Assembly: GCA_013151915.1 (NCBI GenBank) | Contig: JAADHJ010000028.1 | Span: forward strand, 1-64,000 | Reading direction: 5' to 3' | From: Deltaproteobacteria bacterium | GTDB lineage: Bacteria > BMS3Abin14 | Length of the DNA stretch: 64,000 nucleotides | Part shown: one piece after another, positions 1,743 through 53,570 of the stretch | How the letters are laid out: every line of letters begins with the position of its first letter | How positions within the stretch are numbered: the stretch's first letter is position 1 | Translations under genes and position numbers: made by a program | The notes under the pieces: generated by a model | Seen by the model: the letters and a program-made list of their open reading frames with translations, nothing else | Told to the model about the DNA's origin: nothing | Database searches by the model: none

Positions 1743-1896
1743 TGATGACTTCGCAAAAAGTCATCAATGCGCCCACTGATGGGCGCCCAAATCAATGACT
1801 TGCATCGCAAGTTGTTGATTTGTAAGGAAAATGAAAATGACACTTTTCGCTTTCCGTAGAGCAAAAAGCCATAAATGGACTTTTTGCGACCCTATT
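1743..1896 (+). repeat. Five-hairpin intergenic element, full copy A
   Basis: Reference copy of the element. Read on the plus strand it folds as five consecutive hairpins: HP1 1743-1766 (TGATGACTT/AAGTCATCA), HP2 1769-1786 (GCGCCCA/TGGGCGC), HP3 1789-1821 (AAATCAATGACTTGC pairing with GCAAGTTGTTGATTT), HP4 1826-1855 (GGAAA...TTTCC) and HP5 1861-1887 (GCAAAAAG/CTTTTTGC), closing with GACCCTATT. The arms differ between copies, but pairing is kept. It lies between the RHS fragment and the DUF2905 gene. This copy and copy B have the opposite orientation to the others. Confidence 0.9.
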
Positions 1897-1900
1897 AACA

Positions 1901-1922
1901 TTAGACGTTGGATGTTGGTCCA
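1901..1922. repeat. Short 7-bp (gttggac-type) tandem repeat
   Basis: About three degenerate units of the heptamer GTTGGAC (written here as agacgttggatgttggtcc). It directly follows the five-hairpin element. Longer arrays of the same heptad family occur near 22.4, 28.6, 29.3, 42.9, 47.3, 57.4, 59.6 and 59.9 kb. Confidence 0.5.
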
Positions 1923-1969
1923 GGATACCCTCTTAATACTCCTACCTGTGTGGGGTTCCCGACAGGCTT

Positions 1970-2191
1970 CTAGGACCGGAAGATATTAAAAAGGATAGTC
2001 AGGATCAGGCTGATCAGCAGGCTCGTGACCAGTGGGAAGTAGATTACGGTATTTTTCTTCCGGATAATGATATCCCCGGGGAGATGGCCGATCCACGGGA
2101 TCCGTGGCGCTACCATAAGGAAGACTCCGAGCAGTACCAGGGCGATGCCCAGGATAACGAGGAATTTTCCCATCATGCCCAACGGTGTCAT
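1970..2191 (-). CDS. DUF2905-family small membrane protein
   Basis: A 73-residue protein with two transmembrane helices (about 8-28 and 50-70) separated by the family signature LPGDIIIRKKNTVIYFPL, where the short charged turn follows LPGDI. This matches the DUF2905 family of small inner-membrane proteins, whose function is unknown. Its ATG overlaps the TGA of the Mut7-C gene as ATGA, so it is probably translationally coupled to it. An alternative internal ATG lies 15 bases further in. Length and motif order are normal for the family. Confidence 0.85.
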   Translation of the reverse strand: MTPLGMMGKFLVILGIALVLLGVFLMVAPRIPWIGHLPGDIIIRKKNTVIYFPLVTSLLISLILTILFNIFRS

Positions 2192-2712
2192 CCCCCTAAC
2201 GCCTCCAACATTTCCGCTATTTCGGCGGCCATGCGATCAGCATGGGTGCCGGGCCAGTAGCATTTCCCGCAGCGCGGGCATCCCATGAAACGTTCAGCCG
2301 TCATCCAGACATACCGGGGAACCATGTTCCCGGCCTCTTCCCGGTCCATCTCATACAACATTGCGTTGCAGTCAAGGCATCGGGTCAATGGCTTTACAGA
2401 CAATTCAAACCTCCTCAAAAGGGGGAGCACGGAGGCGAATTCCCCTCGGGCATCCGCGCCCGAGACGAGCCAGGAGTTCTCGCCGAGCCTTTCGGCCAAT
2501 CGGGCGTCCCGGGTGAGGACGATCCTGCCTTCGGAACGGGAACGGTATCGTATCAGCGTGTCGTCTTCATCGGCGGCAAATTCCGCATCCATGCCAAGCA
2601 TTCTCATCTTTTTCGCCAGGCTGCCGAGCATGCCGTCCAGCAAAAACGCGGGGGATTGGGCCTCAGGATTCTTTGTCCTCACCCTCCCCGTCCGCCTCCG
2701 GCGCGGTCTCAT
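2188..2712 (-). CDS. Mut7-C RNase domain protein (PIN-like with zinc ribbon)
   Basis: The 174-residue product carries the Mut7-C nuclease-like domain. FLLDGMLGSLAKKMRMLGMD at about 24-43 holds the first conserved Asp, VLTRDARLAER near 66-76 holds a second acidic site, and a C-terminal zinc ribbon is formed by CLDC and CPRC. Members are predicted RNases related to PIN domains; the substrate is unknown. The first 20 residues (an Arg-rich run) lie before the domain and overlap the upstream small gene by 50 bp, so the true start could be one of the internal codons. It forms a three-gene unit with the 58-residue protein upstream and DUF2905 downstream. Confidence 0.85.
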   Translation of the reverse strand: MRPRRRRTGRVRTKNPEAQSPAFLLDGMLGSLAKKMRMLGMDAEFAADEDDTLIRYRSRSEGRIVLTRDARLAERLGENSWLVSGADARGEFASVLPLLRRFELSVKPLTRCLDCNAMLYEMDREEAGNMVPRYVWMTAERFMGCPRCGKCYWPGTHADRMAAEIAEMLEALGG

Positions 2713-2839
2713 CCTCGACCTCCTCCTTGTGCATCAGGATGATGCTCCTGACCTCGATGCCGGCATCCTGAAGGGCCTTTCTGACCTGTGGCATTTTTGC
2801 ATCTGTTACCTTGACTAGAAAATTATTGTTGGTTGCCAA
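2663..2839 (-). CDS. Small 58-residue protein with acidic tail, function unknown
   Basis: From a TTG start at 2839 preceded by a strong GGGAGGTG site, the frame encodes 58 residues. A compact N-terminal part contains FLVKVTDAKMPQVRKAL and IEVRSIILMHKEE, a beta-alpha-beta-like pattern. It is followed by a very acidic tail (EDETAPEADGEGEDKES). The frame stays open upstream to 2950, but that part is repeat DNA and lacks a ribosome site, so the short version is preferred. It overlaps the start of the Mut7-C gene by 50 bp and is probably cotranscribed with it. No family recognised. Confidence 0.6.
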   Translation of the reverse strand: MATNNNFLVKVTDAKMPQVRKALQDAGIEVRSIILMHKEEVEDETAPEADGEGEDKES

Positions 2840-2920
2840 TCCAGACACCTCCCTTTTTACGCTTAATTGATGACTTCGCAACTCAAGTCCTTGATGAACG
2901 ACACAGCCGTCTCTGGACAC

Positions 2921-2954
2921 GAGATTGCTTCGCATGTGGTCAGCTCGCAATGAC
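2921..2954. repeat. 'GTCATTGCGAGC...GAAGCAATCTC' dispersed repeat
   Basis: On the minus strand this reads GTCATTGCGAGC, a short spacer, then GCGAAGCAATCTC, a palindromic-type unit found scattered between genes of many proteobacteria. A second, more degenerate copy is at 22335-22376. It abuts five-hairpin element copy B. Confidence 0.6.
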
Positions 2955-51830: not shown

Positions 51831-51832
51831 CA
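51789..51832 (-). repeat. Five-hairpin element, partial copy M (HP2-HP1), coding
   Basis: gcgcccctctgtgggcgc (HP2) and tgatgacttcgtaagaagtcatca (HP1). HP1 carries the ilvC stop at its outer end and the psd start codon one base frame over. The repeat lies wholly inside the psd reading frame. Confidence 0.88.
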
Positions 51833-52837
51833 ATCCTTGACCGCGGCTTCCTCCTTCAGCCAGGGCATCAAAGCGCGCAGCCGTCGGCCCACCTCTTCTA
51901 TGGGGTGCTCGGCGCCCTGTCTTTTCAGTGCGTTAAACACCGGACGCCCGGCCTGGTTTTCGAGAATCCACTCCTTGGCGAATTCACCACTCTGTATCTC
52001 CTCGAGGATATACCTCATCTCATCCTTGACATCCTCGTCGACGATGCGCCCACCCCGAGTCAGGTCTCCGTACTCGGCGGTATTGCTGATGGAGTAACGC
52101 ATGTTGGAAATCCCACCCTGGTACATGAGGTCAACAATGAGCTTGAGCTCGTGAAGACACTCGAAGTAGGCCATCTCAGGGGCATATCCCGCTTCGACGA
52201 GGGTTTCGAACCCGGCCAACACCAGGCTGGTCGCGCCGCCGCAAAGGACGGCCTGCTCGCCGAAGAGGTCGGTCTCGGTCTCTTCCCGGAAGTTGGTCTC
52301 CAATATCCCGACCCGTCCTGCGCCGATGGCGCCGGCATACGCTAAAGCCGTTTCCCTCGCCTTGCCGCTTACATCCTGATGGACGGCTACGAGACAGGGG
52401 ACACCTCTCCCATGGGAATACTCCTGGCGAACCAGATGCCCGGGGCCCTTGGGAGCGATCATGATCACATCCATGGAGGCGGCCGGCATGATCTGCCCGA
52501 AATGGATCGAGAAGCCGTGGGCAAACGCCAGGGTGCTGTTCTTCCCGGCGTGGGGTGCGATGTAATTTTCATAGACGGATTTTTGTATCTCATCCGGGAC
52601 CAACACCATGATCAGGTCCGCCCAGCCTGCCGCCTCCTCAATGGACGCCACGGAAAGGCCTGCCTTGGTCGCTTTTTTCCTGCTTTTACTGCTCTCCAGA
52701 AGGCCGACTTTAACATCCACTCCACTCTCATGCAGGTTAAGCGCATGGGCATGTCCCTGGCTGCCGTACCCGATGATGGCCACCTTCACGCCTTTGAGTC
52801 TGTTGCCCTTGATATCTTTGTCCATAATCACGTTCAT
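51830..52837 (-). CDS. ilvC: Ketol-acid reductoisomerase
   Basis: NADPH-dependent isomeroreductase of valine and isoleucine synthesis. The 335-residue class I enzyme has [17 protein letters not shown], the nucleotide-specific SSKSRKKA loop, [28 protein letters not shown] with metal-binding Asp and Glu, and [10 protein letters not shown]. The ATG at 52837 has GGAGGAGG upstream. The stop overlaps psd through repeat M. It follows ilvN by 25 bp. Confidence 0.95.
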
Positions 52838-52862
52838 TCCATCCTCCTCCTTTAATACCAAC

Positions 52863-53348
52863 CTATTCAGTGTGCATTTCCCGCGCGATGGCCACTTTGC
52901 CGGTGCGCATGATTTCCTTGACTCCGAAGGGTTTGATCAAATTGATAAACGCATCGATCTTCCCCTGATCACCGGTAATTTCGAATGTGTAGCTGTGATG
53001 GGAAATATCAACGATTCTCCCCCGGAAAATAACATTGATCCTCAGTATCTCCGCCTTGGTCTTCTCGGTGGCGTTGACCTTGACCATGAGTAACTCCCTG
53101 TCAACGAAAGACGTGCCGGTCAGGTCGGTCACCTTGATGACATCTACGAGCTTCCTTAACTGTTTTATTACCTGTTCGATAATCCGCTCATCCCCACGGC
53201 TGACGATGGTCATACGTGAGATGGTCGGATCGAGGGTCTCACCGACACTCAGGCTCTCGATGTTGAATCCCCTTCCTGAAAAGAGGCCTGCGACCCGTGA
53301 CAGGACACCGAATTTGTTCTCTACGGTAACGGAAATAGTATGTTTCAT
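52863..53348 (-). CDS. ilvN: Acetolactate synthase small (regulatory) subunit
   Basis: The 161-residue regulatory subunit that binds valine and activates IlvB. It starts [23 protein letters not shown] (ACT domain, about 1-78), with [20 protein letters not shown], then a second ACT-like half (85-158). The ATG at 53348 follows GGGGAGAAC. The frame upstream to 53387 enters hairpin repeat N and is not protein-like. Confidence 0.95.
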
Positions 53349-53364
53349 AAGGTTCTCCCCTACT

Positions 53365-53499
53365 TGATAGGGTCGTAAAAAGTCCATTAATGGCTTTTTA
53401 CTCCGCGGAAAGCAAAAAGTGTCATTTTTACTTTCCTCACAAATCTTTGATTTGCGCGCCCTTATAATGGGCGCGAAGATGACTTTTTACAAAGTCATC
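53365..53499 (-). repeat. Five-hairpin element, full copy N
   Basis: tgatagggtcgtaaaaagtcc to caaagtcatc, with HP5, HP4 (GGAAAGCAAAAA with TTTTTACTTTCC, a paired change), short HP3, HP2 (GCGCGCCCTTATAATGGGCGCG) and HP1. It separates ilvB from ilvN together with partial copy O. Confidence 0.88.
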
Positions 53500-53504
53500 T
53501 TCTT

Positions 53505-53570
53505 TGATAGGGTCGTAAAAAGTCCATTAATGGCTTTTTACTCCGCGGAAAGCGAAAAGTGTCATCATCA
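53505..53570 (-). repeat. Five-hairpin element, partial copy O, ending at the ilvB stop
   Basis: It starts tgatagggtcgtaaaaagtcc 5 bp after copy N, holds HP5 and the first arm of HP4 (ggaaagcgaaaagtgtcatca), and ends at the TGA of ilvB (53568-53570). Same full-plus-partial layout as copies C and D. Confidence 0.87.

Follow-up and report, generated by a model that had tools for sequence, protein, structure and literature searches.

A dispersed five-hairpin element with features of a miniature transposon in an uncultured deltaproteobacterium

The window analyzed here is a 64,000-nucleotide stretch of a contig from an uncultured Deltaproteobacteria bacterium. A preliminary description reported that an intergenic element of five consecutive hairpins (HP1 to HP5), about 140-180 bp long, recurs at 14 positions in this window. 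All 14 were recovered with a covariance model and a profile HMM, and the HP1 motif alone has nine matches, compared with 0.00 by chance. The copies are as follows.

1743-1897, + strand: full five-hairpin element, with HP1 at 1743-1766, then HP2-HP5 and the right end to 1897; target duplication ACAT
2948-2994, + strand: 47-bp mini, with the left end fused to the right end and the interior absent
6015-6156, - strand: complete element of the short-HP3 class
6161-6216, - strand: right part only (model positions 100-155), head-to-tail with the 6015 copy across a 4-bp spacer
14070-14116, - strand: 47-bp mini
15483-15540, - strand: left part only (HP1, HP2 and partial HP3); its TGA overlaps the stop of the 15538-16122 gene
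23051-23225, - strand: complete element of 175 bp with a longer HP3
25469-25624, - strand: full five-hairpin element of 156 bp; target duplication AATGA
39627-39759, - strand: element without HP1 (model positions 22-155)
44214-44260, - strand: 47-bp mini within the 37-bp gap separating two called genes
45579-45637, - strand: internally deleted copy with both ends, lacking HP3-HP4
51789-51832, - strand: HP1 and HP2 only (model positions 1-44)
53365-53500, - strand: complete element of the short-HP3 class
53505-53573, - strand: right part only (model positions 87-155), head-to-tail with the 53365 copy across a 4-bp spacer

The sequence at 1743-1897 folds into exactly five consecutive hairpins, with a free energy of -63.2 kcal/mol compared with -30.2 for shuffled sequences (z -9.2); the opposite strand gives -61.8 kcal/mol (z -7.7). 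Only six of the 14 copies are complete or nearly so (1743, 6015, 23051, 25469, 53365, and 39627, which lacks only HP1). Three consist of nothing but the two ends (the 47-bp minis at 2948, 14070 and 44214), and five are truncated or internally deleted (6161, 15483, 45579, 51789 and 53505). Instead of a continuous range of 140-180 bp, we find size classes of ~155, ~135 (short HP3) and 47 bp, which form a deletion series with common ends. The single orientation reported for 12 of the 14 copies is confirmed, yet nearly all genes in the window share one direction.

The preliminary description had made its proposal depend on further copies outside the window, and these are abundant. With up to three mismatches allowed, the right end, GACTTTTTRCGACCCTATCA, is present 264 times in the 2.27-Mb genome, split 136 to 128 between the strands, whereas a reversed-pattern control gives none. 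The uncultured host genome contains about 250 copies. A covariance model built from 63 copies matches 11 of the 12 genomes of the family, three of which have at least 150 matches each; it finds no copy in the remaining genome, G002. Among 98 relatives searched, other families show matches only at the control or background level. A scan of 84,980 species returned 49 stretches, nearly all from environmental genomes titled Proteobacteria, Pseudomonadota or plain bacterium. One contig titled Mariprofundus (L095:1018-1108) and one titled Desulfobulbales (L136:2065-2172) carry a single match each, reflecting either horizontal spread or misbinned contigs. The viral contigs, phages and plasmids searched contain no match. 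Rfam has no match at gathering score across the window, nor any up to E 1 in the region 1600-6400, and a literature search with the end sequence yielded unrelated chance matches only.

Alignment of 30 copies reveals sharp boundaries, TGATGACTTCGCAAAAAGTC ... GACTTTTTRCGACCCTATCA, that are imperfect inverted repeats. The ends read TGATgacTTCGYAAAAAGTC and TGATaggGTCGYAAAAAGTC, with the shared form TGATnnnnTCGYAAAAAGTC. Among 120 distinct copies having both ends, 30 are flanked by an exact 4-bp duplication (mean of 3.5 and maximum of 10 with shuffled flanks) and eight by an exact 5-bp duplication (0.8 with shuffled flanks). Exact duplications of 4-5 bp are thus kept by only about one-third of copies (38 of 120), compared with ~4 in shuffles. 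The duplicated sequence is ANNT or AANNT. When the element and one duplication were removed in silico from 30 sites, the pre-insertion consensus was TCAANRTTGA, corresponding to the palindromic target TCAANNTTGA.

A congener with ~85% identity (G001) has a contig that is syntenic over 68 kb and carries the same flanking genes without the element. The tested sites of C16:1-69 kb lack the element, and some of them, such as C16:18963, are cleanly empty; at most loci, intergenic divergence is too high for base-exact empty sites. Mobility, previously offered as inference only, is now well supported by terminal inverted repeats, target duplications and empty sites, and it is from this genome comparison and these insertion marks that we infer movement. 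The element is short, non-coding, dispersed and present in high copy number, and it shares with miniature inverted-repeat transposable elements (MITEs) inverted ends, target duplication and empty sites in relatives. We conclude that it very probably represents a family of non-autonomous, MITE-type miniature transposons rather than a host RNA gene. Given established transposition biology, the ends, duplications, target and element-free sites point to a transposon of the DDE type.

The hairpins covary strongly, both between copies and between genera. In the alignment used (A1), the five helices are paired in 95.3% of cells. Changes on both sides affect 18 pairs and 102 cells, compared with 9.7 and 30.5 in shuffles, and controls in which the structure was slid along the alignment give only 11-23 double-change cells. 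At one HP5 pair, 32 sequences have UA and 26 have CG, and one HP4 pair takes four states (UG, GC, CG and UA). Covariation beyond chance, on which the preliminary description also depended, is therefore present, and it indicates that pairing has been maintained in the lineages that spread.

Rare changes, which presumably arose after insertion, give a different picture. Changes found in a single copy in the host genome affect 44 of 7850 paired positions (0.56%) and 25 of 4584 unpaired positions (0.55%), and rare mismatches are as often G.T (22) as A.C (23), with no G.U excess. Thus, the earlier claim of selection on structure holds insofar as pairing is kept by covariation, but paired bases are not spared in resident copies. 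The fold looks to be maintained in the propagating lineage and not detectably in resident copies. Strong fold selection in resident copies is excluded, and moderate selection is still compatible with the 69 events. On the sense strand, G.U accounts for each of the three most frequent non-Watson-Crick states, an observation that is only suggestive of selection on the sense single strand in source copies.

Covariation could instead result from correction of palindromes at the DNA level, through template switching in hairpins, with no selection on the fold. The hairpins are near-perfect in every module, and seven cells carry rare double changes that restore a pair, as such a process would produce. 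Because correction would yield perfect palindromes, however, persistent T.G pairs argue against it: one HP4 pair is T.G in 80 of 95 of the genome's own copies and in 38/63 in the broader set, and two HP3 pairs are T.G in 27/63 and 23/63. We regard this explanation as possible but rather doubtful.

All 95 long copies lie outside genes. Those flanked by co-directional genes number 51 in the sense and 13 in the antisense orientation (p 2e-6), counts that take transcription and replication direction together and rest on genes called by a simple hexamer method with approximate start sites. The bias persists when one copy is counted per array (41 versus 12, p 8e-5) and is strongest in tight gaps (19 versus 1). 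For approximately ten sense copies, the upstream stop codon coincides with the start of the element or lies no more than 3 bp away (for example, 15538 and 51830 in the window), so the TGA of the element's TGATGA is often the gene's stop.

Palindrome-targeted transposition alone does not explain the 51:13 bias. These observations might mean that the element is a domesticated RNA whose sense copies process or stabilize operon mRNA and whose fold is selected in place. The strong covariation, the G.U states on the sense strand and the frequent location of 5' ends at stop codons fit such a role. However, a role in host mRNA processing, as raised in the preliminary description, requires fold selection on each copy, which the equal rates of rare change and the absent G.U excess do not support, although moderate effects are possible. 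In addition, the congener has empty sites, G002 lives without the element, and the ratio among relatives is 21 sense to 17 antisense, so the bias is not family-wide. Terminator-like motifs occur on the antisense strand in 43 of 95 copies but on the sense strand in 24 of 95; loss of polar antisense insertions is therefore a sufficient explanation, and the bias may reflect only this loss. A domesticated RNA element is accordingly unlikely, and we retain the miniature transposon as the preferred interpretation.

A mobilizing transposase was sought in the family. No transposase gene bracketed by element ends was found among its rve, DDE_Tnp_1, DDE_Tnp_1_4, DDE_Tnp_1_6 and Y1 loci, and neither long-distance pairs of ends nor shared interiors of lone ends disclosed an autonomous partner. 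Paired inverted arrays in L096 were considered as a composite transposon and rejected, since the enclosed gene reads as what we take to be pyrF, adjoined by a presumed pyrD-like gene (both named by reading the sequences).

The preliminary description had suggested looking for a REP-type transposase, and the genome does contain two intact Y1_Tnp genes. Together with dispersed intergenic palindromes, these genes could indicate REP or REPIN sequences mobilized by a tyrosine (Y1, RAYT) transposase. Yet no element lies within 1.5 kb of either gene, G008 (98% complete) carries the element but gives no Y1 match, G002 carries two Y1 genes but lacks the element, and Y1 genes are uncorrelated with element copy number. 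The definition of REP and REPIN sequences calls for a palindrome of 20-40 bp that is tagged at one end with GTAG or CGTC (PMC3733652), whereas the element is larger and has untagged TGAT...ATCA ends. Moreover, Y1 chemistry makes no target duplications, which are present here. This possibility is largely refuted and highly improbable.

Copies of the element, interpreted as a MITE, can adjoin one another. Among the 95 long copies, 30 ends have a second element end within 12 bp, mostly at 4-5 bp, a count in which certain junctions are entered from both sides. All neighboring ends have the same, head-to-tail orientation. The outer bases ...ATCA and TGAT... flanking a duplicated ANNT recreate the target palindrome, which turns existing copies into targets and makes self-targeting expected; because the target is palindromic, this does not account for the strict head-to-tail order. 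The arrangement suggests either tandem dimers or self-targeting, and the strict order resembles that in the tandem dimers formed by copy-out-paste-in elements (PMC9333248, PMC3299598).

Nested insertions into the loop of the third hairpin are the oddest trait of the element. In relatives, HP1-less siblings that carry their own ends, TATTACCATCGCGCCCG ... GGACTTTTTGCGACAATAACA, interrupt outer elements within the HP3 loop (model positions ~62-68 and 76-79). Such HP3-loop insertions are found at:

L096:258-546
L124:1-281
L138:2253-2538
L237:634-1050
L099, L109 and L132

Nesting reaches three levels (L237; one copy in G004), and hybrids joining outer-left and inner parts are seen in relatives. 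Because the siblings insert into its loop and give mosaic elements, hairpin 3 could be a docking site. A fuller version, in which the single-stranded or transcribed five-hairpin fold is needed for the MITE lineage to propagate, selection acts only on source copies and hairpin 3 serves for docking, is tentative and has less than an even chance of being correct, by a good margin.

We propose the following pathway, in which the enzyme, the route and the reason for the fold are all inferred. A putative transposase acting in trans would recognize the ends TGATnnnnTCGYAAAAAGTC and use the palindrome TCAANNTTGA as its insertion site, with the central ANNT or AANNT (4-5 bp) becoming duplicated. Inserted copies, with the palindrome rebuilt, would become new targets, and a copy-out-paste-in enzyme producing tandem dimers would leave head-to-tail neighbors with 4-5 bp spacers. 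Covariation preserves the five-hairpin interior in the source copies that propagate, presumably because a folded DNA or RNA is important either for amplification or for how well transcribed copies are tolerated. Resident copies show no detectable structural constraint as they decay.

Several other repeats were observed. A second group of short elements has ends TGACAACCTCGYAAAAAGTC / TGATGGACTCGCAAAAAGTC, a different interior and the common general end TGAYnnnnTCGYAAAAAG; it occurs in the window from 16075 to about 16170 (+ strand) and at C6:28817-28886, C16:34481, C16:61908 and C16:82603. An unrelated dispersed palindromic repeat, TTTACCACAGCG...CCACAGGGTT, lies at 4135-4186 and 22228-22279 in the window and, in L010, after the element. 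Intergenic heptamer runs (TCTGGAC, GTTGAAC) are located at 28607-28673, 29319-29383, 47307-47354, 57441-57496, 59646-59674 and 59856-59939; runs of the GTTGAAC type can include the target motif of the element, and several copies are located in heptamer runs. Six 84-bp tandem repeats (32113-32571) inside the ORF at 32064-32675 (- strand) encode a 28-residue protein repeat.

With these findings, a bacterial family represented here by environmental genomes gains a large family of MITEs. The findings also separate two things that are usually lumped, namely the maintenance of pairing where the lineage spreads and the lack of constraint in the copies that remain. The contrast between paired and unpaired positions offers a simple computational test that can tell selfish hairpin repeats from host-functional ones. 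Concrete clues to a candidate transposition pathway come from the head-to-tail junctions and from the nesting targeted to loops.

Among known systems, the element resembles bacterial MITEs in being <200 bp, non-coding, intergenic, strongly folding and high in copy number, with inverted ends and target duplication (PMC2229807). It differs in its 4-5 bp duplication within the TCAANNTTGA palindrome, where TA is common, in its array of five separate hairpins along the entire length, and in that no autonomous partner was found among five transposase Pfams.

ERIC is one long imperfect palindrome, and the Correia/NEMIS hairpin is formed by its two ends pairing with each other, whereas each end here makes its own hairpin. 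ERIC (127 bp, enterobacteria) is likewise intergenic and family-wide, has no known transposase and may be sensitive to orientation relative to genes, and Correia/NEMIS of Neisseria is likewise an inverted-repeat MITE (PMC2229807). Roles in mRNA processing or stabilization have been proposed for ERIC and NEMIS. Correia/NEMIS transcripts have been put forward as RNase III substrates (PMC2229807). Both target TA, and ERIC also has another sequence and host group; membership in either was rejected because the duplication here is ANNT or AANNT.

BOX elements of Streptococcus pneumoniae are also modular, variable in length and strongly folded, with MITE features (PMC3049150). By description, they vary through boxB repetition and live in an unrelated host, whereas the present element has five fixed hairpins, a deletion series and nested insertions. 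IS3/IS30-type copy-out-paste-in elements share abutted head-to-tail copies with a spacer near the length of the target duplication (PMC9333248, PMC3299598), a resemblance only. Overall, the element is a new family within a known type of mobile repeat, the MITE, and has some unusual habits.
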